The notes under the pieces are model-generated. The model made no database searches, was not told where the DNA came from, and worked only from the letters and a program-made list of their open reading frames with translations. A stretch of DNA of 39,568 bases from positions 1 through 39,568 of the forward strand of contig JADFYJ010000020.1 in NCBI GenBank assembly GCA_015233115.1. Reading direction: 5' to 3'. Positions 1 to 34,611 of this stretch are shown here, piece by piece. This DNA comes from Candidatus Omnitrophota bacterium. GTDB lineage: Bacteria > Omnitrophota > Gorgyraeia > Zapsychrales > Zapsychraceae. Each line of letters starts with the position of its first letter. Positions within the stretch are counted from its first letter, which is position 1. The position numbers and the translations under genes were made by a program.

Positions 1-1689
1 AATTAAGTTTTCGGTGATAAATCCAAATTTATTGTTAAAACCTCGTAAGCTCGCGAATTTTTCATTAGTATTTTTGAGCCAGTTTTCCAGAACGTCATAA
101 ATTTTGAGTCTGATTTCTTTGGGAATTCGGGAAAGACTGGGAGCGGTTAAAGTGCCGGTTAGCATGGCGCGGTCTTGTTTTACGATCAAACTGCTAACGA
201 TGCGTTGGAAGTAACTGATAATACCGTGAAAAATAATGGGATTGCCTATTTCACCGGAAGAAAATGCAAAAGTTATTGATTCTTTTTTGGTTTTATAAGA
301 TGCAAATAACATTTGTTTTGTGTTTTGGGTCATATTGGAAAGGTTTAATATTGTTTCGAAGAGTTGGTCAGGTGTTTGTATTTTTCTTTCATAAATTAAT
401 TTAGTCAATAATTCTGGATTACGGTCATACTCGCTTAATTTGATTTGGATTATGTGTAAAGCAGTTTTAAGATTAATTAATTGGGTTGTAGATGTTAGAT
501 CCACTGTGACTTTCGCTAATACGTCAGGATTAAGTTGGGCTATTTGTGCAGTGGTTGCTGTGCTTTCGACGACCATTGCTTCATCTGTCTCTAAAGCTGT
601 CCCGCCTGAAAAATATTTGTGAGCGACAACTTTTTGCTCAGCAGGATCATAGTCTTCCTTAATATAGTTAAACACCCCGGTTTTAAAGGCTTCTAAATAT
701 TGGGCGTAGATTTTGGCATTTGTTTTAGAATCATTATCATTGATGCCTTTAGTTTTATTTTTATTCACATAAATCTGGCCAAGTAAGGATTCTTTTAAAG
801 ACCGTTTAAACCAGGTTGCTAAAATATTTGAGTAATAAATTTGTCGTAAATTAGCGAAAGTTTTGCCTTCATTGACTTCTTTTTCAATTTCCGGGATCAA
901 AATTTCTTTAACAATCTGTGATGTGACGCCACTGATAACTTTGGTGTCTTTAGATATCAGGTTTTCCATGCCGAATTTCTGGTCGCCCATGTTCTTTTGC
1001 AGGGCGATGTAGTCTTCTTCCAACAAGACCTTTAAATGGCTTTCCATAATAAATGCAGTAACTTTTGGTGAGCCTGTTGAACCATGCTCATAAACCACGG
1101 CTTTAGACGGGACGATCCATACTTTATTGAAGGTGTTAATCGGAATATCTAAAAATTTGTCATTCCCGCGAAAGCGGGGATCAAGTGATAGTTTTTTATA
1201 TACACGATTCCAAAATTCAGCGCCTAAACTTTTTTCCGGGAACATCAAGGATGAGGTTAATTGTTTCAGCATGTAATCCTGCGCTAATAAATCGCGGCCC
1301 ATTTCTGTTTGGCCGAATTTTTCATTGATCATACGGTCTTTTTCATAAGGAGACAAATTGACCCATAATTCTTTCTCGGGTATAGTTAGAGATGCTAAAA
1401 AATATTTGATGAGTTTTAAAGATTCGGCTTTAAAAGGTTCCCCTTGCATTTTCTCTTGACCGCGGTCAATTAAAAAGTTAAATTGCAATGGATTTTTGGG
1501 GTCAACAGTCATGCCACGCACAATAGCGGGCGCGAAATTGGCTGTGGGAGTGACTAAAATTCCTGGTGCTGTCAAATTAAGCTGGGCAGAAGCTGGCGCT
1601 AATAAAATACTGGAAGTTGTGAATGTAATGAGGATTAAAATTGAAAAGAATTTTCGGAAAAGCGAGAATTTTGATGCTTCTACAGTCAT
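1..1689 (-). CDS. Partial secreted protein, Omnitrophota-type modular family (3' end off window)
   Basis: I translated this frame from the ATG at 1689 down to base 1 without a stop; about 563 residues are visible and the C-terminus lies outside the window. Residues 1-35 form a signal peptide (basic start, hydrophobic core, ASA-Q cleavage site). The next ~310 residues match the protein at 12015-15188 block by block: WVNLSP, FGQTEMGRD, KVWIVP, EVNEGKTFA, KYFSGG. After that the two diverge, so this looks like a common N-terminal domain with a different downstream part. Residues 168-178 (SLDPRFRGNDK) are encoded by a dispersed palindromic repeat. The start is supported by AAAGGAG 8 nt upstream. 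I do not recognise a function; export to periplasm or surface is inferred. Confidence 0.85.
   Translation of the reverse strand, partial: MTVEASKFSLFRKFFSILILITFTTSSILLAPASAQLNLTAPGILVTPTANFAPAIVRGMTVDPKNPLQFNFLIDRGQEKMQGEPFKAESLKLIKYFLASLTIPEKELWVNLSPYEKDRMINEKFGQTEMGRDLLAQDYMLKQLTSSLMFPEKSLGAEFWNRVYKKLSLDPRFRGNDKFLDIPINTFNKVWIVPSKAVVYEHGSTGSPKVTAFIMESHLKVLLEEDYIALQKNMGDQKFGMENLISKDTKVISGVTSQIVKEILIPEIEKEVNEGKTFANLRQIYYSNILATWFKRSLKESLLGQIYVNKNKTKGINDNDSKTNAKIYAQYLEAFKTGVFNYIKEDYDPAEQKVVAHKYFSGGTALETDEAMVVESTATTAQIAQLNPDVLAKVTVDLTSTTQLINLKTALHIIQIKLSEYDRNPELLTKLIYERKIQTPDQLFETILNLSNMTQNTKQMLFASYKTKKESITFAFSSGEIGNPIIFHGIISYFQRIVSSLIVKQDRAMLTGTLTAPSLSRIPKEIRLKIYDVLENWLKNTNEKFASLRGFNNKFGFITENLI
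1159..1185. repeat. Short palindromic repeat (ATTCCCGCG-aaag-CGGGGAT type) inside a gene
   Basis: The bases TCATTCCCGCGAAAGCGGGG form a hairpin within the coding sequence of the secreted protein at 1-1689. The element resembles the ATTCCC-N-GGGAAT palindromes known from Neisseria (dRS3) and many other genomes. Read in frame it gives the typical DPRFRGND peptide, which replaces an unrelated linker in the paralogue at 12015-15188. Related variants lie at 4421-4453 and 8686-8745, and a half copy near 25660. Confidence 0.8.
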
Positions 1690-1721: not shown

Positions 1722-1834
1722 ATGGAAAGAGTATTACAAGTGTGGCATATAATATTTTAAATGTCAAGATTGAGGCTGGCCCATAACATATTGCAGTTAA
1801 TAAATTTATAAAAATAATTAAAAAGGAAAAATAA

Positions 1835-2455
1835 ATGGCACTTCCTAAAAGTCTTATAGACAAAAGTCTTATATTGAAACAAATTGAAATTGGCCCAATG
1901 GGAAACTTTACTTACTTCATAGGTGATGCATTATCTAATGAAATTGCCGTAGTTGATCCGGGATGGCAAGCAGAGCAAATTTCTGAGTTGGCAAAAGAAG
2001 AAGGTTTTAAAATTAAGGCTGTTTTGTTGACGCATGGACACTTTGATCATGTTCAAGCAACCGGTGATTTATTAAAATGGCATAATGTTCCGGTTTATAT
2101 TTCAAAAAAAGATATAGTCAAGATTCTGGGGGCGGAAATAAAATTCATAAATGATAGTGACAAAATAAAAATCGGGAGTATTGAGTTGGAATGTATCCAC
2201 ACGCCGGGCCACACGCCGGGCGGTATGTGTTTTCGTTATAAAAACGTGCTTTTAACTGGAGATACTTTGTTTATCAATGCCATTGGTCGCTGTGATTTGC
2301 CAGGCAGTGATGAAATAGCAATGGAACATTCACTTGAAAAAATTTGTAAACTGCCTGACGATACTCTTATATTTAGCGGACATGGGTACGGACCAAAAGA
2401 TTGGGATACGTTGGGAAACCAAAGAAAGACGAATCCGTATTTACAGAATTTATAA
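1835..2455 (+). CDS. Metallo-beta-lactamase fold hydrolase (glyoxalase II-like)
   Basis: This 206-residue protein has the MBL-fold metal site: HGHFDH at 67-72, then HTPGHTPGG, TGDTLF and SGHG, which supply the remaining His and Asp ligands. Length and motif order fit the short glyoxalase II-like branch that hydrolyses thioesters or related substrates in the cytoplasm; the true substrate cannot be read from sequence. There is no signal peptide. The start has a clear AAAAAGGAAA ribosome site. It is transcribed divergently from the secreted protein at 1-1689 and converges on the glycosidase ORF, overlapping its end by 6 bp so that TTATAA at 2450-2455 contains both stop codons. Confidence 0.9.
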   Translation: MALPKSLIDKSLILKQIEIGPMGNFTYFIGDALSNEIAVVDPGWQAEQISELAKEEGFKIKAVLLTHGHFDHVQATGDLLKWHNVPVYISKKDIVKILGAEIKFINDSDKIKIGSIELECIHTPGHTPGGMCFRYKNVLLTGDTLFINAIGRCDLPGSDEIAMEHSLEKICKLPDDTLIFSGHGYGPKDWDTLGNQRKTNPYLQNL

Positions 2456-4453
2456 AGCGTTCCATATTGATCTGAAATAATAATAACTTTTTCGTAAATC
2501 GCGTTGGAAAGGTGAGTGTTTTCCGTTTCCCTGCCCTGCAATACCGAACCACTCTTCATTTCCTATTCCGTCAGGGAAATTATAGGCGTGTTGGCCGCGG
2601 ATTTGTTGTTTATTTTCTGGATCTCCCCAAGTATCTTTCCACCATTCGTCGAGGTATTCGAATATGACGCCGCCGATGGCATTCCCTTCTCCGTCACCTC
2701 CTGCCAAATTATTGACAATATCAATCCAGTTTCCTTTTAAATACTCAAGCTGACCGTCTTCGTCAACGCCGCGGTCTGTATAATAGGCGTCACAGCCAAA
2801 CTCGGTAATTAAAACTGGCCGGTCAAATTTTTGTTTGGCTTCAGCCCAAATATTATCAAAACCATTTTTGCCATGATAAGCATTGACGCCGATAATATCA
2901 ATTTCAGGCGCGTAATTGTTATAATATTCAATCAAATTGAGTTCGAGATTTCCTACGGAGACCGGGTGGTTAGCGTCGATGGTGTGGATCATTTTTGCCG
3001 TATCATTTAAGAAACACGAATATTCGAATGGATGACTGGCAGCATTGGTTCGGGTGGCGTTGATGCCATTGTAAGTCGCGGGCAAATTGTTTTCATTTCC
3101 TAAAACCCACATCAGGACAAATGGTTCATCTTTTAAATCTTCCACCATATCGTGCACAACTTTGGTCATGGTTTTTCGTTGTTGGAGATCAGAGTAATCA
3201 GTCCCTTTTTCCCAAGACGCGCCTGATCCGTCCGTATAAGCTCCAAAAAAATTTCCAATGATTGTGTATATTCCGAATTTGTTATAAAGTTCACGCAATA
3301 AAGGTTTGTTAATCTTTTCAGGATCGTACTTTCCGTCAGGGGCAGGCAAATAAATGCGGATGGCATTAACACCCATATTTTTCAGTAATTGGAAATCGCC
3401 AATCGTCGGTTCAGAAGCTTCCTGTTTATTGTTGTGATTTTCATCCACCCACGCATCATAAGGGGCATCAATTAAATTATTATGATTGGCATCTTCAAAC
3501 ATCCAGCGCGTGCCGTAATAGCGGTCAGAATGCGGGCCGAGTCCGACTTTTGTCGGAGCGTAATGGATGCCATGAATAATAAATGGCTGATTGTTAATCA
3601 TCATTTGCCAATGACCGTTGGAAAATTTAACCAGACGAACTTTCCCTTCTCCTCGTGATCCTAATACGGCAAAATATTTTTCTCGCTCGGATTGAGGGGC
3701 TGCAGTTATCAGCTGCCCAGGATCGGTTTTAATAATGTCATTGTTAAAATTTAAATCATTTCCATTTCGGACGATAACGCTGGCGCCCGTTAATTTGATG
3801 CCTAATTGTGGGTATTGCCGGCACAATCGTTCGATTTGTCCAATAGCGGTTGGCGCAACATACCACACAAACGATTTATCTTTGCTCCAGCAATAGGCTT
3901 TGGGGAAATGTACCAAAACAGTATAATATGCTTTTATCGCAGGAATAATATACCCGGCATTTTCGAGAATTTGACCAATAAAAAAGTTTTTTACTCCTCC
4001 GGGTTCAGGACAATTGGCCCAAATAAAAAATAATTTTTCCAAGTCCTTCTCATTTTTTAAAGCTTCCCAATGATTGGTATGCAGCTGACCTTTTTTTAAA
4101 TATTGCTGATAAGCTGGATTTGCCTCTATGCCCGAATAATTAGGAAATATCCCTGGCCCGTTGTATGCTTTTAACCCTTCTGAATCTGTGATGGTAAATT
4201 TATATAATGTGGTGCCTTTGTTTTCAAATTTTCCAAAATGTGAATAATCTTGAATTTGTAAATTGGTATCTGTAAAAAATTTGAACACCGGAACAGGCAA
4301 ACAGTTTTGATTTTCTTTTTTTATTTTATTAGCTTCGAGAAAATATGCCGCGGGAATTTTGTCATCAGCAAATGAAAGTTGGGCTGAAACACAAATATAT
4401 AGTAAAAAAATAACTAGCGTTGTCATCCCTGAGTGTTTGAAACGGGGATCCAT
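2450..4453 (-). other. Probable independent reading of the secreted glycosidase (internal start)
   Basis: An ATG at 4453, preceded on the minus strand by AAAAGGAAAA, would give a 667-residue secreted enzyme. Its first ten residues (MDPRFKHSGM) come from the palindromic repeat and supply the basic n-region; the hydrophobic stretch LVIFLLYICV and an A-x-A type site near SFADD follow. A second possible start is the ATG at 4426. Mature residues include a helical, TPR-like stretch before the catalytic barrel. Specificity within GH2/GH5-like enzymes cannot be assigned. Confidence 0.55.
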
Positions 4454-5317
4454 TTGACATTTTCCTTTTATCCTTTTTCTAAAGGTGCTGTTAACAATGT
4501 TGCTAAATAATTTGAATGGAAAAAATTTCCTTAGGAAATATATCATTTTTACGGATAAACCCGGAATATTGCGTAAAGGCGGATTGTTCTGGCGGATGAG
4601 TTTATCAATCAGCCGGACCACATCCATGGGATCGCGCTTATTTTTACGGATCGAATCCATGGTGAGGTCTTTTAAAGATTGGGAAAATTGATAATAAGGG
4701 CTCTTAGTGTCGTTAAACTGTTCAGCATATCGAGCGTTTTCTTCAAAAATTTTAGTTCGGTAAGATCCTGGTTCGATCAGGCATATATTAATGCCAAAAG
4801 GTTTGACTTCATAAAACAGGCATTCGCTGAATGCTTCCAGCGCCCATTTACTGGCGTTATATGCGCTTAAACATGGATAGCAGATTAAACCTGCAATACT
4901 GGAAATATTAATGATTGTTCCTTCGCGTTGAACGCGCATAATGGGCAAAACCGCTCGGGTCACATTTTGAACTCCGAAAAAATTGGTTTCCATAATAGAG
5001 CGGATATCCTGGTCGGATAAATCTTCAAAAAATCCGCCCATGCTAAAGCCGGCGTTGTTTACCAACACGTCAATACGTCCGTATTTATCTTTAATATAGT
5101 CGATGATTTTTGAAATAGATTGCGGCTGAGTGACATCGAGTTGCTGGATATCTATGGAGGTTTGAAATTTGCTGGCCCGGCTTTTAAGTGTTTCGCCCTT
5201 ATCCATATTCCGCATGGTTGCGATAACCTGGTATCCTTGCGAGCTTAAATAAACCGCAGAGAGCATTCCAAATCCGCTGGAGCAACCGGTGATGAGTATG
5301 ACTTTGGAATTTTTCAT
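2450..5317 (-). CDS. SDR oxidoreductase fused in frame to a secreted GH2-like glycosidase
   Basis: One uninterrupted 955-codon frame holds two proteins. Residues 1-288 are a complete classical short-chain dehydrogenase: TGCSSGFG (10-17), NNAG (87-90), catalytic Ser139/140, Tyr153 and Lys157 in YNASK. Residues 289-955 begin with a signal-peptide-like segment (298-316) and end in a TIM-barrel glycosidase of GH2 type, with NEN at 741-743 (acid/base Glu742) and TEFG with nucleophile Glu839. Two EF-hand-like calcium loops start at Asp609 and Asp625. A signal peptide in mid-protein makes no sense for a cytosolic SDR, so I infer two tandem genes whose separating stop was lost; the junction is a dispersed repeat (4421-4453). 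The glycosidase may be translated from its own ATG at 4453. It follows aroC after 93 bp. Confidence 0.75.
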   Translation of the reverse strand: MKNSKVILITGCSSGFGMLSAVYLSSQGYQVIATMRNMDKGETLKSRASKFQTSIDIQQLDVTQPQSISKIIDYIKDKYGRIDVLVNNAGFSMGGFFEDLSDQDIRSIMETNFFGVQNVTRAVLPIMRVQREGTIINISSIAGLICYPCLSAYNASKWALEAFSECLFYEVKPFGINICLIEPGSYRTKIFEENARYAEQFNDTKSPYYQFSQSLKDLTMDSIRKNKRDPMDVVRLIDKLIRQNNPPLRNIPGLSVKMIYFLRKFFPFKLFSNIVNSTFRKRIKGKCQMDPRFKHSGMTTLVIFLLYICVSAQLSFADDKIPAAYFLEANKIKKENQNCLPVPVFKFFTDTNLQIQDYSHFGKFENKGTTLYKFTITDSEGLKAYNGPGIFPNYSGIEANPAYQQYLKKGQLHTNHWEALKNEKDLEKLFFIWANCPEPGGVKNFFIGQILENAGYIIPAIKAYYTVLVHFPKAYCWSKDKSFVWYVAPTAIGQIERLCRQYPQLGIKLTGASVIVRNGNDLNFNNDIIKTDPGQLITAAPQSEREKYFAVLGSRGEGKVRLVKFSNGHWQMMINNQPFIIHGIHYAPTKVGLGPHSDRYYGTRWMFEDANHNNLIDAPYDAWVDENHNNKQEASEPTIGDFQLLKNMGVNAIRIYLPAPDGKYDPEKINKPLLRELYNKFGIYTIIGNFFGAYTDGSGASWEKGTDYSDLQQRKTMTKVVHDMVEDLKDEPFVLMWVLGNENNLPATYNGINATRTNAASHPFEYSCFLNDTAKMIHTIDANHPVSVGNLELNLIEYYNNYAPEIDIIGVNAYHGKNGFDNIWAEAKQKFDRPVLITEFGCDAYYTDRGVDEDGQLEYLKGNWIDIVNNLAGGDGEGNAIGGVIFEYLDEWWKDTWGDPENKQQIRGQHAYNFPDGIGNEEWFGIAGQGNGKHSPFQRDLRKSYYYFRSIWNAL
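4421..4453. repeat. Diverged palindromic repeat at the SDR/glycosidase junction
   Basis: The plus strand reads TGTCATCCCTGAG, then ACGGGGATCCAT. This is the same TGTCATCCC...GGGGATC family as 8686-8745 and, more distantly, 1159-1185. It lies exactly where the SDR domain ends and the signal peptide of the glycosidase begins, and it is read through in frame. Confidence 0.65.
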
Positions 5318-5324
5318 AAAAGAA

Positions 5325-5421
5325 ATGGTGTCAGACCTCGGCTTGAAACAGTTTGCTTGAAATTTAAAATGATCGCCGGATAAATGCCTGGCGCCAATGG
5401 GCAGTCGAGTTCAGACACCAT
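5325..5421. repeat. 97-bp element with 16-bp imperfect terminal inverted repeats
   Basis: The left end ATGGTGTCAGACCTCG (5325-5340) and right end CGAGTTCAGACACCAT (5406-5421) match as inverted repeats at 14 of 16 positions. The interior has no ORF. The element fills the gap between aroC and the SDR ORF, and its right end supplies the last two codons and TGA stop of aroC. Size and ends suggest a small non-autonomous mobile or REP-type element; no transposase is nearby. Confidence 0.6.
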
Positions 5422-6484
5422 ATTTTATTGCTTGTTGCGCCATTAATGCGTCGACTAAGACAATTGCGGTCATCGCTTCAACAACCGGAACCATGCGTGG
5501 GCACAGACATGGATCATGCCTGCCTCCTATGTCGCAAAAGATATCTTTACCCTCTTTGTTGACAGTGGCTTGGCGTTGAGCTATGGAAGATGTCGGCTTA
5601 ACCGCTAAGCGGAAAATAATATTTTCTCCATTACTCATCCCGCCTAAAATACCGCCGGCGTGATTTGTTAAAGTCCGGACATTTTTACCATCCATATAAA
5701 ATTTATCATTGTGTTGAGATCCAGTCATGCGGCTGGCAGCAAAACCTTCTCCGAATTCAATCCCTCTAATGCCGCCGATTGAAAGCATGGCATAGGCAAG
5801 ATTAGCATTTAATTTTTCAAATATGGGGTCTCCTAATCCAGCTGGACAATGAGATACGACAGTTTCGATAATCCCGCCGATGGAATCATTTTGCGCTTTG
5901 ACAAATTCGATTTTTTGAACCATCGCATCAACGATTTCCGGATCCACCGTACGAACTGGATTTTTTTCAATAAAATTAAAATCTTTTGTTTTAGCAACGA
6001 TGTCGCCAATCGCCAGTGTATACGCGGCAATATTGATTTGTTTTTCTTCTAATATTTTTTTGGCGATTGCCCCGGCGGCTACGCGTCCGATTGTTTCACG
6101 ACCTGAGGCCCTGCCTCCTCCGCGATGATCGCGGATGCCGTATTTAGTAAATGTCGTGTAATCAGCGTGGCCCGGACGAAACAGCCCTTTGATTTTGTCA
6201 TAGTCAGAGGTCCGCTGGTCGCTATTACGCACGAGTAACGCGATCGGTGCGCCAGTTGATTTTCCTTCAAAAACGCCGGATAATATTTCAACTTTATCTG
6301 CTTCCTGGCGGGGAGTAGTAACAGCGCTTTGTCCAGGTTTACGCCGGTCAAGATCATGCTGGATATCCGTTTCTTTGATCACCAGATTGGGAGGAATCCC
6401 ATCAATAACCACCCCAATCCCCACCCCATGGCTTTCCCCAAAAGTCGTGATTTTAAAAATATTTCCAAATGAGTTACTTGCCAT
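5411..6484 (-). CDS. aroC: Chorismate synthase
   Basis: A 357-residue chorismate synthase, the last shikimate-pathway step, converting 5-enolpyruvylshikimate-3-phosphate to chorismate with reduced FMN. Signatures are GESHGVGIG near the N-terminus, RPGHAD, and GGGRASGRETIGRVAAGAIA. Length is normal for the bacterial enzyme. The start follows AGGATAATT. The C-terminal residues Gly-Val and the TGA stop lie inside the inverted repeat at 5406-5421, so the original C-terminus may have been altered slightly. It sits 117 bp after leuD, with a palindromic repeat and a heptamer tract between them. Confidence 0.97.
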   Translation of the reverse strand: MASNSFGNIFKITTFGESHGVGIGVVIDGIPPNLVIKETDIQHDLDRRKPGQSAVTTPRQEADKVEILSGVFEGKSTGAPIALLVRNSDQRTSDYDKIKGLFRPGHADYTTFTKYGIRDHRGGGRASGRETIGRVAAGAIAKKILEEKQINIAAYTLAIGDIVAKTKDFNFIEKNPVRTVDPEIVDAMVQKIEFVKAQNDSIGGIIETVVSHCPAGLGDPIFEKLNANLAYAMLSIGGIRGIEFGEGFAASRMTGSQHNDKFYMDGKNVRTLTNHAGGILGGMSNGENIIFRLAVKPTSSIAQRQATVNKEGKDIFCDIGGRHDPCLCPRMVPVVEAMTAIVLVDALMAQQAIKYGV

Positions 6485-8778: not shown

Positions 8779-11478
8779 TTATTTTGCTAACTTTTTTAAT
8801 ACGGTTTTTAAAATTCCACCATTACGAAAATAATCGATCTCCACTGGGGTGTCTAAACGCACGATCATATCAAAAGATATTGATTTACCTTTTGAGGATT
8901 GTGCAGTTACTTTTATCAATTGACGCGGTTTCAAATCATCGGTAATACCTACAAAATTAAAAATTTCTTCCCCGGTTAAACCTAATGATTGGGCGTTTTG
9001 ATCGTTTTGGAATTGAAGCGGTAAAACTCCCATACCTGCCAGATTACTGCGATGGATGCGTTCATAACTTTCGGCAAATACAGCTTTTACTCCCAAGAGT
9101 GCCGTACCTTTGGCCGCCCAGTCTCGGCTGGAACCTGTGCCATATTCTTTTCCTGCGATGACTAATAATGCTGTATGCGTTTTTTTGTATTGTTCCGCGG
9201 CGTCAAAGATACTGATGACTTGGTTATTTGGAAAATAGGTAGTCCATGACCCTTCTGTCCCGGGTGCTAGCTTATTGCGTAAACGGATATTAGCGAAAGT
9301 ACCGCGGGACATGACTCGGTCGTTACCACGCCTTGAACCATAACTGTTAAAATCCGGCGGCTGTACCCCCAGTTCCAACAGATACTTTCCCGCTGGACTG
9401 TTTTGCGCGATTGAACCTGCGGGAGAAATATGGTCAGTCGTAATCGAATCACCGAGCATCACTAAAACGCGGGCATCTTTAATCGGTTGTATTGCTTTAT
9501 CCTCCAAAGACAAGTCCGTAAAAAATGGCGGTTCTTGGATGTAGGTGCTTTTAGGATTCCAGTCGAATTGAGCAGATTTAGTGCTTTTTATTTCTGCCCA
9601 TTGTTCACTACCCAAAAATATATTTTTATATCGGGTTTTAAATGCGGAAGGTTTTAAGCCGCGGTCAATATTTTTTAATATTTCCTCTTCGCTCGGCATA
9701 ATATTTCCTAAAAATATATCATGTCCTTTTTGATCTTTTCCAATCGGTTCCGTCGCAAAATCAATATTAGTCGTTCCAGCTAAGGCATAAGCCATGACCA
9801 ACAAAGGGCTGGCTAAATAATTCGCTTTAACATGAGGATTGATCCGTCCTTCAAAGTTACGATTGCCGCTGGTCACACTAGATACGACTAAATGCCCGGC
9901 TTGGATCGCTTCGATCACTTCAGGGCTTAAAGGCCCGCTGTTTCCAATGCAGGTCGCGCATCCGTATCCAACGATATTAAATCTCATATCTTCAAGATAT
10001 TTTAATAATCCGCAGTTTTTCAAATATTCCTCAACAACTTGTGAACCCGGGGCAAAACTGGTTTTTACATAATCCTTGATTATCAAGCCTTTTTCAAAAG
10101 CTTTTTTTGCCATGAGTCCGGCAGCGATTAACAATGACGGATTCGAAGTATTGGTACAGCTGGTGATGGCAGCTAAAACGACTGATCCATGCCCGATTTG
10201 ATCTTTGGCTTTGTTGTTAACAGTAATTTTTTTGTTTAGATCTTCCAGTTTAATGTTAAATCCTCCATCAGAAACAGGAGCAGTAAACACGTTGTGGTAA
10301 TGGGTTTTAGCGTTTTTTAACAAAATCCGGTCTTGCGGGCGTTTGGGCCCGGAAATACATGGCTCGACCGTCGAAAGATCCAATTCTAAATTGGAACTAT
10401 ACTGGCTTTCAGTTTTGTATTCGTAGAACATCCCTTGCGCTTTCAGGTAATGTTCCAGCAGTTCGACGTCAGCTTTGTCCCGGCCAGTAAAATGATAATA
10501 ATCCATAGTAACCCGATCGATCGGGAAAATGCCCATGGTCGCGCCATATTCGGGTGCCATGTTCGCTATAGTTGCACGGTCTGGTAAAGATAAATATTTA
10601 AGTCCATAGCCATAAAATTCCACAAATTTATCGACGACACCGTGTTTACGGAGCATTTGTACCAGAGTTAAAACCAGATCTGTGGCTGTAACACCATTGG
10701 GCAATCGTCCGGTTAATTTTACGCCTACGACTTCCGGCATGACCATATCAATTGGTTCGCCCAGCATCACCGCTTCCGCTTCAATGCCGCCAACACCCCA
10801 GCCGACAATGCCTAGGCCATTAATCATAGTGGTATGGCTGTCCGTCCCGACTACAGAGTCAGGATAAACAATAATTTCTTTATTGTGCTTCTTTTTGAAT
10901 ATGCCAGAGGCCAAATATTCTAAATTGATCTGATGAATAATCCCTGTAGCCGGCGGAACCACATTGAAATTTTTAAACGCGTTCTGCCCCCATTTTAAAA
11001 ATTCATAGCGCTCTTTATTGCGCTTAAATTCTAAGGTCGCATTTTGGCCAAAAGCTTTTTTGTCGCCGTAATGATCAACCTGCAGAGAATGGTCAATGAC
11101 CAGGTCACACGGCACTTGCGGATTTATTTTTTTAATATCTCCGCCAGCCTTGGCAATCGCGGAACGCATGGCAGCCAGATCAACCACGCAGGGCACTCCG
11201 GTAAAATCCTGCAAAATAACCCGGCTAGGTTTAAACGCGATTTCTTTGGTTGATTTTATTTTTGGCGACCAGTTTAGTAAGGTCTGAATATCTTCCAACC
11301 GGACTTGATAATCGTCATAATTTCGTAAGGCGCTCTCCAGAAGTATTTTTATGGAAAAGGGTAATTGGGCAGGATCCCCTAACCCGGTTTGCGCCAATTT
11401 TTCAAAACTAAAATAAGTAAAATTGCCTTCGGATGTTTTTAATTCGGCTTTTATGTCTTTTTGATTAAATTTAAACAT
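8779..11478 (-). CDS. acnA: Aconitate hydratase, AcnA/IRP type
   Basis: This 899-residue enzyme isomerises citrate to isocitrate through cis-aconitate. It has the AcnA layout: N-terminal three domains with the [4Fe-4S] ligands in SCTNTSNPS and in [12 protein letters not shown], a linker, and a C-terminal swivel domain with [16 protein letters not shown]. Length is normal for bacterial AcnA. The start has AAGGACAGACC before ATG. It stands alone as the first gene of the minus-strand run that continues into leuC after 148 bp. Together with citrate synthase (31719-33047) and fumarase (27437-28828) it supplies TCA steps, although the three are scattered. Confidence 0.97.
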
Positions 11479-11497
11479 GGTCTGTCCTTATTAATGC

Positions 11498-11518
11498 CAT
11501 AGGCGATAGGCCATAGGC
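11498..11518. repeat. Heptamer tandem tract (NATAGGC x3)
   Basis: Units CATAGGC, GATAGGC and CATAGGC lie 20 bp upstream of the acnA start, followed by a partial AATA. Confidence 0.8.
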
Positions 11519-11569
11519 AATAAGAAAAAATATTAGTTTGATTTTAAGTTATAATTTTGGGGCGTTTTT

Positions 11570-11596
11570 GTAGGGGCGATCTCCTGATCGCCCGTA
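11570..11596. repeat. GTAGGGG-type palindromic repeat (copy 2)
   Basis: It starts GTAGGGGCGATC and ends GATCGCCCGTA, around a CTCCT centre; GGGCGATC and GATCGCCC pair. It is followed directly by the core motif TATCAGTCGTTTT. Confidence 0.8.
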
Positions 11597-11661
11597 TCAG
11601 TCGTTTTGCCATCATTTTAAAAAAATTATTATAAATAACATAACAAAAAAACGGCAATTTT

Positions 11662-11690
11662 GTAGCGGGAGGTCAGGAGACCTCCCCTAC
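11662..11690. repeat. GTAGGGG-type palindromic repeat (copy 3, opposite orientation)
   Basis: GTAGCGGGAGGTC, AGGA and GACCTCCCCTAC form a near-perfect hairpin. Relative to copies 2 and 4 it is inverted (the GTAGGGG end is on the right). Confidence 0.8.
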
Positions 11691-11725
11691 AACAGCGTCG
11701 ATTTGATTAACAAAAAATGTTCGTT

Positions 11726-11749
11726 GGGCAGATCTCCGGATCGCCCGTA
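11726..11749. repeat. GTAGGGG-type palindromic repeat (copy 4, left end diverged)
   Basis: GGGCAGATCTCC then GGATCGCCCGTA. It is followed after 7 bp by another TATCAGTCGTTTT, mirroring copy 2. Confidence 0.65.
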
Positions 11750-11843
11750 AAACGGCTATCAGTCGTTTTGTGGTTGTTTAAAATTGTATTTTAAATTTAA
11801 AAGATTTTATATTATACGTAAACAGTTGGCTGGCGTCAATAAA

Positions 11844-12003
11844 GAACCCCTAAAATGACGGTGGGGGCAAATCCCGGACTGTGCGGGACCATCATTCCAG
11901 GGGTTGAATTTTTGAAGTTTGTCCTTGAAGGACCCTTCCCCCCTTCAAATCTATTTAAAGTATATACGACATTTGGCAAAAAAAAAGGGGTTTTTAGGGG
12001 TTC
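11844..12003. repeat. 160-bp element with 12-bp perfect inverted ends and an internal hairpin
   Basis: GAACCCCTAAAA (11844-11855) and TTTTAGGGGTTC (11992-12003) are perfect inverted repeats. Inside, AACCCCT (11845-11851) also pairs with AGGGGTT (11899-11905), with ATGACGGT/ACCATCAT and CCCG/CGGG as inner stems. The element ends 12 bp from the stop codon of the protein at 12015, so the hairpin may act as its terminator. A miniature mobile element is the alternative reading. Confidence 0.55.
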
Positions 12004-12014
12004 CAAGAAAGCCT

Positions 12015-15000
12015 TTACTTGACGAGTTCCTGTAAATTTTTGATTGGCTCAATAGAAATAAACACAGGTTTTAAACCCTGCGAGAAATCTATATTGGTCA
12101 TTGCACGATCCGTCGTAACGGGGGAATTCAGATTTTCTTTAACTGCCAACGCACTCATATCAATACCACCGGGAGCTTTTGGGTTTTGATTAGTTGGGTT
12201 TATTATTGTAGTCATGGGCGTATTTTTGACTGGCAGGTTATAAAAAATATTAGCATTTTGAGGCGTGCTAATCATAGCTGAGTCAGCGTCATGTGTTTCC
12301 CGGATTTTTTGTTCACGAGCGTAGCGTTTTAAAAATACATATCCATATACCGGCCAGCCTTTGCTAACATCTTTTTCATCATTAATCAGACCATTAATGC
12401 TTCCCGGATTACAAATGTGATTTAAAAAATTATAATATTTTTCTAAAGCCTCGAGAGTATTTTTGCATATCTTAATATATCGACTGTAGTTTTTTAAAGA
12501 AATTTTCAAACCTAATGGGCTTTCCCATAATATTAAAAAATCCTGATATTGGCGTAATCTGTCTTCTAAATCGCGTTTAACGGCTTCTCCTCCAAACATA
12601 ACTGTGAAGAGGTTTGTTTTATCAAAGGCTTGAGTGCCATAATCCCCCAGTTCTTTATAAATATAGGCAGCCAATTTATCATTCTTTTCCTTCATTAAAT
12701 TGTGCATTTTTTTTAATTCGTCTATGAGTTCTTGCGGCGGTTTTGCGGATAGCGGATTAAATACATAATCATCGGTTGAAAGGAATTGAAAATTTTCACG
12801 AATAAATTCATGCCAGTGGCGAATTTGTTCAGTGATCTTATTATCATTCCAGACAGTTATGCTCCCTTGAGCAATTTTTTGTATATTTTTAATATATTCA
12901 ATAGCACTGTTCCAGTCTTCATTCGACATCCGCTGCTCGTTATCCTTTGCGGGTGAAGACATAGCATAATCGGTTTGTACAGCACCAACAGTTGTAGCGA
13001 GTTCAGACTCATTATCTAACAAATCGAGCTGCGCATCTTTAGCTGTCAATATTTTCCAAATTCGATTTACATCTCGTCCTAAAGTTGCGCGGGTTGATTC
13101 CAAATACTTGACGACTTTTTCCAAATCGGCACCGATATATCCGGCTTTAATCGCAGTTTGACGAATATTATTAATTTGTTTGAATTTCCGGATACTTTCC
13201 TTCAAATTTTCCACTGTTAAACCCTCAGCCGCTACTATGCCTGCGCCAAAACCTCGTTGACGTATAAATTCCTCTTCGATGATAAGGTTTTGTGTTCTGA
13301 TATTTGACATTTGATATAAATTTAAAACATGGGCCATGTTTTGATGCCATTGTTCTGAGGCAGAATAGATGCCGGTTTGAATGACATAATTTATTAAAAA
13401 ATTATGAATAAAATCAGAGCCGTGCTCATCAAAAAATGTGATGTTATCCAAATCTACAGTCACAGGAATACTGTCTATAAATCCTAAATTCCCTAAATGT
13501 GGATCAAACCTGCCGAGAAAAATATTTGCCACCAGAGCCGCGGCAAAGGCTTTTTCTGGGGATTGTTTTGACAGGGAATCACGGTCTATGTTGCCTTCTG
13601 CTACTAGACGCGTTAAATAGTAGTCGTTCTTATCAGTAGGTAATCCGAGGTTAAACGCTTCATCGTTTTGTAAAATCCTAATATCGACAAAATTAGCCCG
13701 GCCTTGAGTTAACAAATGAGCTAAATATTCGCGCTGCCGGATATTTTTCAATGTCCCATTTTTTACAGGCTCGGTTTTTTTTAGAATCCAAAATTTTCCT
13801 TTTTCATCTTTGAGTAAATTTTCATGAAATACTCGGTATTTACTGTATCCTAATTTATGAACCCGCATGGAATCCCAACGCATGGATTTATATTCATAAG
13901 CGGAAGCCTGGCGAATTCCATCCGCGAATTTTTTTTGGTACAGGGCAATGTTGGCTTCCCAGTTTTTTTGTAATGATTGGTAGAAAGTATTGAGAATTTT
14001 TGCACCGTTGGTGTTGCCGTCGTTTTCGTCATGGTCTTTTATTATTGTGTACACGTGATGAGAAGAAACCGGCGCGACTTCAATCCGCATCCTTTCAACC
14101 GGTCTGGGAAGCTCTCGCAGAATTTGTGCGCTTTTCAGCGAGGTTTCCTGCAGCATAGCCAGATCCATTTTTACCCCGCCGGAGAAATATTTACGGGGAA
14201 TAATGGTTTGTTTTTGAACGTCATATTCTTCTTTTATGAATTCGTAAGCGCCTTGTTTGAAACCATTGAGATATTTTTGGTAGATGCTCTGTGCGGCGTA
14301 TTTATCGTTAATTTCAATGGCATGCGTGTGGTTTTGATCAACATACCCATGTCCTATGGCGGTCTTAAAGAAATGTTTTTTGTACCAGGCCGCTAAAATT
14401 AGTGAATGATAAATCTGGCGTAAAGGCGCGAAAGTTTTGCCTTCGTTGACTTCGCGTTCAAGAACGGGAATTATAAACTGTTTTAATAAAGAAGATAGAC
14501 GATAGACGGGAGAGGATAGATTAGAAACAGATTTCAAATAATCATCTTCAGCCAGTACTTTCAACTTGGCTTGGGCAATGAATACATTTTGCCCATGAAC
14601 ATAAACTTCAGCTTTTTCAGGCACAATCCAGACTCGGCTTAAAATATCTACCGGAATATCTAAATTGTCAGATGCTTGTCTATCTTCTAATTTCTCCCTT
14701 CTATTTTCATAAATCTTTGAATACACAGCTTCCCAAAATTTTTGACCTATTTCTCCGTTGGGATTCATTAAACTGGCAGTCATCTGTTTTAACAAGTAAT
14801 CTTGCTCCAGCATATCCCTGCCCATTTCGGTTTGGCCGAAGGCTTGAGGAATAATGTGGTGGGGGTCTTTAGGGGACAGGTTCACCCACATATCTTTTTC
14901 TGGTACAGTTAATGCGGCAAGAAAGTAACGCGCCAGTTTCAAGCCTTCTTGTTTCGCATCTATTTGAGGATTATCCCCTTGGTCTAAAATGAAATCAAAA

Positions 15001-15188
15001 CGGAATGGTTGTTGAGGATCAAATGTTGCACCTTGCAGAATTATTGGGTGATATGTGGTTGAAGAAAGAATGTTCGATGGTGGATTAACTGGCAAAATCT
15101 GTGCAGACACTTTTGGACCGCAAAGAGTTTGCAAAATGAATATGCCGATTAAAAGTATAGAAAAAAATTTATGACTGAATCGATTCAT
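12015..15188 (-). CDS. Large secreted protein with HipA-like kinase motifs and GGID tail
   Basis: This 1057-residue protein has a signal peptide (residues 1-29, VSA-Q cleavage) and an N-terminal domain to about residue 340 shared with the protein at 1-1689. Residues ~440-600 carry a protein-kinase-like motif series: WILKK (Lys470/471), REYLAHLL (Glu487), DYYLTRLV hinge, then GRFDPHLGNLGF (Asp562, His564, Asn567) and VDLDN (Asp579/581), matching the D-x-H-x-x-N ... D pattern of HipA/CtkA-type kinases. Residues 700-1000 are unrecognised helical sequence. The last ~50 residues start with GGIDM and end with PVFISIEP, a tail also found at 33877-34611. DxAM occurs four times in linkers (Asp342, 740, 969, 1027). 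Residues ~220-230 are encoded by a heptamer tract. Secreted kinase activity is inference. No clear ribosome site is visible. Confidence 0.9.
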   Translation of the reverse strand: MNRFSHKFFSILLIGIFILQTLCGPKVSAQILPVNPPSNILSSTTYHPIILQGATFDPQQPFRFDFILDQGDNPQIDAKQEGLKLARYFLAALTVPEKDMWVNLSPKDPHHIIPQAFGQTEMGRDMLEQDYLLKQMTASLMNPNGEIGQKFWEAVYSKIYENRREKLEDRQASDNLDIPVDILSRVWIVPEKAEVYVHGQNVFIAQAKLKVLAEDDYLKSVSNLSSPVYRLSSLLKQFIIPVLEREVNEGKTFAPLRQIYHSLILAAWYKKHFFKTAIGHGYVDQNHTHAIEINDKYAAQSIYQKYLNGFKQGAYEFIKEEYDVQKQTIIPRKYFSGGVKMDLAMLQETSLKSAQILRELPRPVERMRIEVAPVSSHHVYTIIKDHDENDGNTNGAKILNTFYQSLQKNWEANIALYQKKFADGIRQASAYEYKSMRWDSMRVHKLGYSKYRVFHENLLKDEKGKFWILKKTEPVKNGTLKNIRQREYLAHLLTQGRANFVDIRILQNDEAFNLGLPTDKNDYYLTRLVAEGNIDRDSLSKQSPEKAFAAALVANIFLGRFDPHLGNLGFIDSIPVTVDLDNITFFDEHGSDFIHNFLINYVIQTGIYSASEQWHQNMAHVLNLYQMSNIRTQNLIIEEEFIRQRGFGAGIVAAEGLTVENLKESIRKFKQINNIRQTAIKAGYIGADLEKVVKYLESTRATLGRDVNRIWKILTAKDAQLDLLDNESELATTVGAVQTDYAMSSPAKDNEQRMSNEDWNSAIEYIKNIQKIAQGSITVWNDNKITEQIRHWHEFIRENFQFLSTDDYVFNPLSAKPPQELIDELKKMHNLMKEKNDKLAAYIYKELGDYGTQAFDKTNLFTVMFGGEAVKRDLEDRLRQYQDFLILWESPLGLKISLKNYSRYIKICKNTLEALEKYYNFLNHICNPGSINGLINDEKDVSKGWPVYGYVFLKRYAREQKIRETHDADSAMISTPQNANIFYNLPVKNTPMTTIINPTNQNPKAPGGIDMSALAVKENLNSPVTTDRAMTNIDFSQGLKPVFISIEPIKNLQELVK
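14494..14521. repeat. Heptamer tract (GATAGAC) inside a coding sequence
   Basis: Units GATAGAC, GATAGAC, GGGAGAG and GATAGAT run in register within the gene at 12015-15188. They encode part of the segment NLSSPVYRLSS, which has no counterpart in the paralogue at 1-1689. Confidence 0.65.
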
Positions 15189-33876: not shown

Positions 33877-34611
33877 TTAATGTGATACGGCATTTATACC
33901 AAGAAACGTTCGCAAATCCGTCATCGGCTGGATACTGATGATCATAGGCACAAAACCAGGGGCGCTTTTCAACTGCTCTAGCATGGCTGGATCAATGTTG
34001 AATTTAATCTCGCCGCCATTATTTTTTATTTTTAAAGCATTATCTACGGGATTAAGATCAATACCTCCTTTTAGCGCTGGTTCAGCTAACTGGGGACTGT
34101 CATTTGTTTTAAATTCTTTCGCCCGAGTTTCGCGGTAATCTTCTAGTGTTGAAGACAACGCGACAAGATCTTGGTGCACATAGGTCTCTCTGATTTTGAT
34201 GCCTAAATTAATCTGCGCAATCATAGATAGAGCGTCGCCCATCGACGCTCCTGCTCGGCCGGCAGGATTTGCTTGGAAAAACCACCACTCTAAATCAGCT
34301 AATGCTTTTTTTCTTTCATCAAAATTTTCGGATTTATTGTAAATTTTTACCCATAAACGCGCAAGATAGGCCATAATATCTGCTACTTGTGTTCCAGAAC
34401 AGTGAAAAACTGTGAAACCATCGCTTTTAATAGAACCTGCTATTAATTGGATGTATTCTTGTGCTTTATTATTTTTTCCGATATACGAATATTTTTTTGT
34501 AAATATGTCATCTTTTATAAATATTTTGTTTGGGCTTTTTTTATTAAAAATTCCATTTTTTAACATTTTAAATAGTTCTTGTCCGATACTTTCAATATCT
34601 CTACTCTTCAA
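33877..34611 (-). CDS. Small GGID-tail protein of unknown function (possible truncated family member)
   Basis: A 244-residue protein with no signal peptide. The centre holds FFQANPAGRAGASMGDALSM and a helical stretch to about residue 165, which I do not recognise. From about residue 180 the tail starts KGGIDLN and continues to GFVPMIISIQPMTDLRTFL, matching the end of the protein at 12015-15188 (GGIDM ... PVFISIEPIKNL). The annotated start is TTG (34611), weakly supported by AAAGAG. A better-placed ATG at 34633 opens only a 10-codon frame overlapping this start, so a frameshift in an originally longer N-terminus is possible. Confidence 0.7.
   Translation of the reverse strand: MKSRDIESIGQELFKMLKNGIFNKKSPNKIFIKDDIFTKKYSYIGKNNKAQEYIQLIAGSIKSDGFTVFHCSGTQVADIMAYLARLWVKIYNKSENFDERKKALADLEWWFFQANPAGRAGASMGDALSMIAQINLGIKIRETYVHQDLVALSSTLEDYRETRAKEFKTNDSPQLAEPALKGGIDLNPVDNALKIKNNGGEIKFNIDPAMLEQLKSAPGFVPMIISIQPMTDLRTFLGINAVSH

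Follow-up and report, generated by a model that had tools for sequence, protein, structure and literature searches.

The stretch of DNA analysed here (the window; 39,568 nucleotides, contig JADFYJ010000020.1 of a Candidatus Omnitrophota bacterium) carries on its minus strand, at positions 12015-15188 including the stop codon, a gene with an ATG start whose product of 1,057 amino acids comprises a signal peptide, a shared N-terminal region (the N-module), a kinase-like domain, a second segment and a short C-terminal tag. The conserved HipA-like kinase domain of this protein is real, and the exported modular family to which the protein belongs seems not to have been described before.

A preliminary description of this DNA had presented the gene as encoding a protein with a signal peptide, and both the open reading frame (ORF) and a Sec-type signal peptide can indeed be read there: residues 1-29 (15102-15188) contain, by eye, an n-region, a hydrophobic stretch and a V-S-A/Q ending at which cleavage is expected, and a signal-peptidase-like ending of the A-x-A-Q type recurs across the family (a loosely defined pattern detects it in 104 of 116 ORFs). 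The N-module occupies residues 30-341 (14166-15101) and is delimited by an alignment of 22 paralogues, by its distribution and by a structural model. It is followed by the HipA-like kinase domain (residues 404-719; 13032-13979), by a second payload segment with no assigned function (residues 744-968; 12285-12959), part of which is found again adjoining a tag in another genome (G011, L128), and by a tag of the GGID type (residues 1006-1057; 12018-12173; tag profile E 3e-14). Three copies of a D-x-A-M motif located by motif scan, namely DLAM at residue 342 on the border between N-module and payload (14154-14165), DYAM at residue 740 after the kinase-like domain (12960-12971) and DSAM at residue 969 before the tag (12273-12284), separate the N-module, the kinase, the second segment and the tag from one another, and a further copy, DRAM at residue 1027, lies within the tag itself.

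Conservation and ancestry of the kinase-like domain

The whole protein gave no significant match in Pfam, NCBIfam, PADLOC or PHROGs, nor in sequence searches of the PDB. Because the whole-protein searches of Pfam, NCBIfam and the PDB were without a significant match, the similarity to known kinases must be remote, and the kinase pattern was therefore tested through conservation within the family. The motifs and residue numbers given in the preliminary description are exact: WILKK (Lys470/471), REYLAHLL (Glu487), DYYLTRLV, GRFDPHLGNLGF (Asp562/Asn567) and VDLDN (Asp579/581). When residues 400-650 were searched against 384 Omnitrophota genomes, relatives appeared in 12 of these, and the resulting profile raised the number to 20, the source genome being included in both counts; these relatives can be aligned over about 320 residues. 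Most of the homologous stretches, from about 20 genomes, are 18-34% identical to the domain in the window, and the mean column identity of the alignments is 21-28%.

The best-conserved positions against this divergent background are those that had been named in advance. The putative nucleotide-binding Lys470 (13779-13781) is Lys in 21 of 25 stretches and Arg in 2, the putative alpha-C Glu487 (13728-13730) is Glu in 26 of 27, and in the putative catalytic-loop motif DPHLGN (residues 562-567; 13488-13505) position 562 is Asp in 25 of 28 (Asn in 2, Gly in 1) and position 567 is Asn in 20 of 26 (Gln in 4). The putative metal-binding Asp579 (13452-13454) is Asp in 26 of 27 and position 581 is Asp in 20 of 27 and Glu in 4, all of these counts being slightly inflated because a few rows are the same DNA stretch repeated. 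Lys470, Glu487, Asp562, Asn567 and Asp579 are thus strongly conserved, none of them being strictly invariant, and the copy in the window keeps the full set of catalytic residues. Judged from this alignment, the motif pattern is more than chance.

The Pfam model of the HipA_C kinases (PF07804), among which CtkA is counted, matches 3 of 12 members of the family (best E 4e-4). The comparison with PF07804 proposed in the preliminary description was made in profile-profile form, against a reference profile for which true HipA_C proteins were gathered from relatives and then aligned, and it found homology: 12 kinase-like sequences gave E 4.7e-4 and a probability of 32%, while 19 sequences gave E 2.4e-5, a probability of 76% and a score of 42.9. 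As controls, forty column-shuffled HipA profiles scored at most 19.3, the reversed profile scored 19.4, and the unrelated N-module profile reached a probability of 2%. The Lys, the Glu and the D-x-H-x-x-N loop stand in register with those of HipA; the profile match stops short of Asp579, so that the role of this residue is assigned by order alone. We read these results as indicating that the domain is a distant HipA-type homologue with an intact catalytic set.

Three settings of the domain can be distinguished. N-module/tag proteins are represented by the protein in the window and by one in a second genome (G075; tag GGIDF); other Omnitrophota carry the domain in giant ORFs of 3,847, 5,606, 7,604 and 16,369 amino acids, which were found to lack the N-module and the tag over the stretches examined; and three genomes encode it in small proteins (301 amino acids in G343; also G398 and G161) whose N-termini resemble signal peptides by eye. 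Since both the N-module/tag setting and the small-protein setting point outward, an extracytoplasmic role is supported beyond the single signal peptide. No homologues were found in viral contigs. In a small kinase-like protein of G398 (contig C108; L147, L212) the profile match extends beyond an in-frame TGA, and one frame of about 4,082 amino acids (G164, contig C41; L161) holds a tandem pair of kinase-like domains, in the second of which Asn replaces the catalytic Asp.

A shared chassis with exchangeable payloads

The preliminary description took the kinase alone; what it overlooked is that the kinase belongs to a set of exchangeable payloads carried by a modular family that extends across the phylum and whose chassis consists of a signal peptide and an N-module of about 310 amino acids, DxAM motifs and a GGID-type C-terminal tag. 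Residues 6-350 match about 26 genes of the same genome (40-56% identity), and the rest of the product differs from one gene to the next. The N-module is present in 137 of the 384 Omnitrophota genomes, with up to 80 first-look candidates, as distinct from confirmed copies, in a single genome. In a named genome collection at least 502 of 505 pattern-matched stretches encode it, among the matches listed, and 78 of 79 retained N-module loci bear Omnitrophota or Omnitrophica names or those of candidate genera, the exception (L118) being named only as “bacterium”; one of the candidate genera was checked and belongs to Omnitrophota. This distribution is taken to place the window itself in Omnitrophota. 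A confident AlphaFold2 model of the N-module (pLDDT 78.3, pTM 0.77) had no match at E<=0.001 in Foldseek searches against the PDB and viral models. The GGID tag, of about 50-65 residues, ends 22 ORFs of the same genome, and its profile matches 55 of the 58 complete ORFs with an N-module from other genomes. Palindromic repeats (e.g. GTCATTCCCGCGAAAGCGGGAATC) lie in frame in two loops of the N-module in several loci (L028, L029, L024, L032 and window positions 1-1689), where they translate as VIPAKAGI or DPRFRG, and other repeats (PLRGEGRVRG, SNLSSPVY) occupy the same loops; the in-frame palindromes recall the Rickettsia palindromic elements.

The payloads are varied. Those of the same genome include epimerase, HATPase, alanine dehydrogenase/PNT, methyltransferase, HAD, HD, ABC1 kinase and GH26 domains, those elsewhere include phosphoglucose isomerase (PGI), transketolase, histidine phosphatase, NDK, PGK, radical SAM, response regulator and ATP-grasp domains, and many have no Pfam match. 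In Omnitrophota, dozens of different enzymes are packaged in this one shared carrier. A second kinase-type payload of the same genome is an N-module protein with an ABC1/UbiB-like domain (L029, positions 1801-6036, plus strand; E 1.8e-25). Another locus (L100) contains a complete PGI domain (E 1.5e-189) within an N-module/tag protein, and the single other PGI match in that genome is divergent and lies in a 430-amino-acid frame.

In 77 N-module-plus-tag proteins D-x-A-M was observed 176 times against 14.3 expected, and only once inside the N-module. Among motifs of this form it ranks first in the payload regions (160 against 10.2 expected), compared with 6 against 2.8 expected in the other ORFs of the same loci. 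None of 48 payload copies falls inside a recognised domain, where such domains span 23% of that length (P 3.6e-6, a value which is indicative because the domain list was picked from earlier scans). The motif is conserved at the protein level, not at the DNA level. Two candidate explanations for it were rejected: as an internal start, it has a Shine-Dalgarno-like rate of 7%, compared with 9% for other internal Met codons and 42% for true starts; as a DNA repeat, it shows 66 distinct 12-mers among 83, with all four Ala codons in use. Cleavage by a protease at DxAM is a guess.

Proposed role and competing explanations

The conserved residues, the profile link to HipA_C and the exported carrier together make an extracytoplasmic HipA-like kinase likely. 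In the fuller mechanism that we favour, with a probability of roughly 55%, the protein would be exported by Sec via its signal peptide; the N-module and GGID tag, an architecture observed to be shared, would act as a joint chassis by which the protein is directed to, or kept in, a place outside the cytoplasm; the DxAM motifs at the segment borders would probably be linkers cut by a protease, freeing the HipA-type kinase domain, its catalytic residues intact, and the segment that follows it; and the freed kinase would phosphorylate its target at a site that contains ATP, the inside of a partner or prey cell being the simplest candidate, a last step that is the weakest. The broader proposal that a whole repertoire of enzymes is exported as polyproteins on one chassis, with a new-fold N-module, DxAM cleavage sites and the GGID tag, to another cell or an extracytoplasmic compartment is put forward only tentatively.

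Several results weigh against this account. The copy in the window scores 12 bits alone against PF07804, under the gathering cut-off of 30.5, profile searches of the PDB with the kinase family found no match, and the single-sequence AlphaFold2 model of the domain is unusable (pLDDT 34). Many payloads are housekeeping-type enzymes, which are unusual for effectors; no secretion partner or protease for the family has been identified, and localisation is read from sequence. ATP/ADP translocases were found in 25 of the 384 genomes, none of them an N-module genome, and a translocase as the source of ATP is therefore not supported. Of the HipA-type kinase put forward in the preliminary description, the homology accordingly stands on the profile comparison, its controls and the conserved residues, while the kinase fold is putative and catalysis is presumed from the residues; of the secreted kinase, the export half is favoured by the signal peptide and by the signal-peptide-like starts of the small homologues, and phosphotransfer would follow from the HipA homology.

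Delivery to another cell is attractive because a predatory or parasitic lifestyle has been proposed for Omnitrophota, widespread and uncultured bacteria that are suspected predators or parasites (Seymour et al. 2023, PMC10066038). A role in the envelope of the producer fits almost as well. The chassis enzymes might be retained by the producing cell, whether in the periplasm, in the surface coat or in some extracytoplasmic compartment, and the kinase might act there on that cell's envelope proteins or sugars in the manner of secretory-pathway kinases, with ATP supplied in the same space; the analysis yielded no sign of passage into another cell, and PGI, transketolase, NDK and epimerase resemble a metabolic set more than they do toxins. 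However, little ATP or NAD(P) is normally available beyond the cytoplasm, and payloads of such diversity, set between common ends, are reminiscent of effector repertoires; we consider this alternative rather unlikely, though it is the strongest of those weighed. That the domain is a pseudokinase or binding domain, which retains the HipA fold to bind a nucleotide or ligand, or as a building block of giant adhesion-type proteins, but performs no phosphotransfer, would agree with the homologues that lack the catalytic Asp or the Asn and with the recurrence of the domain in ORFs of 3,847-16,369 amino acids, a class for which PMC10066038 proposes adhesion roles; it is made improbable by the retention of every catalytic residue in the window and by the catalytic positions being the best conserved in the family. 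Least probable, and very unlikely, is that the hydrophobic N-terminus does not in fact serve for export and that the family consists of cytoplasmic or inner-membrane multi-enzyme proteins. Many payloads are indeed cytoplasmic-type enzymes and export is predicted from the primary structure, but the signal-peptidase-like ending is repeated throughout the family, the small separate homologues of the kinase domain start in a signal-peptide-like manner, and, in the one genome tested, the PGI bracketed by the chassis is accompanied by its second, divergent copy.

The exported kinase with its chassis can be set beside several known systems. It shares with the HipA_C kinases the Lys, Glu and D-x-H-x-x-N in register and the PF07804 matches of some members, but it differs from them in lying below the Pfam gathering score, in having no adjoining HipB-like ORF, and in being exported and embedded in a chassis. 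The secretory-pathway kinases of the Fam20C and CotH type likewise have a kinase-like domain within an exported protein, and the DND/DLD motif recalls the LDNG motif of Fam20C, a lead only; there was, however, no PDB profile match to either type, and CotH (PF08757) occurs in 1 of 97 Omnitrophota genomes. Like the polymorphic toxin and effector families, the N-module family has constant ends, exchangeable enzymatic middles and many paralogues per genome, and the combination of a constant with an exchangeable enzymatic region in many paralogues, by which effector families are recognised, was found in it; unlike them it varies in the middle and not at the C-terminus, its N-module is new and without a known fold, and it has DxAM motifs and housekeeping-type payloads. 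The giant ORFs of Omnitrophota, described with proposed adhesion roles in Seymour et al. 2023, come from the same phylum and include ones with the kinase-like domain, but those checked differ in having neither N-module nor tag over the stretches examined, and the portion of that description consulted makes no mention of N-module, tag or DxAM. In the PEP-CTERM and type IX CTD systems, too, exported proteins of many kinds end in a short conserved tag, whereas the GGID tag comes with a conserved N-module, and no NCBIfam sorting-tag model (type IX CTD, PEP-CTERM) matched in the five proteins scanned.

The kinase is a variation on a known kind, and the chassis may go further; no description of its layout was found in the open-access literature. 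The family bears on the means by which Omnitrophota may act on other cells: with 137 of 384 genomes, and dozens of candidate copies in many, it provides a concrete list of exported enzymes and a marker, and the A-x-A/Q and DxAM sites are testable in existing proteomes. The HipA family is known mainly as cytoplasmic toxins, and a HipA-like kinase outside the cytoplasm would, if true, extend it; a polyprotein chassis would, if true, amount to a means of delivery and maturation for which no precedent has been described.

Neighbouring genes and further family members

No HipB-like partner gene was found beside the kinase gene, where positions 11478-12050 contain only chance-type ORFs of 53-56 amino acids, and no immunity gene is evident beside it, although no systematic examination was made. 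Upstream, across a gap of 146 bases, lies a radical SAM gene. Directly downstream, the 56-amino-acid ORF at 11836-12006 (minus strand) reads STPGMMVPHSPGFAPTVILG, which resembles the N-module start LPAPGxMVxLSxxFxPxxLKG, and is probably a decayed tandem copy of the N-module. A second N-module gene (positions 1-1689, minus strand; N-module profile E 5e-152) is cut by the contig end. An orphan GGID tag at 33880-34611 (minus strand; tag profile E 6e-23), in an ORF with no N-module and no Pfam match that adjoins a glycosyltransferase-like gene, is what remains of the C-terminal end of another gene of the family. Elsewhere in the window, at 2450-5317 on the minus strand, a protein of 955 amino acids fuses a short-chain dehydrogenase to a region resembling the barrel of glycosyl hydrolase family 2.
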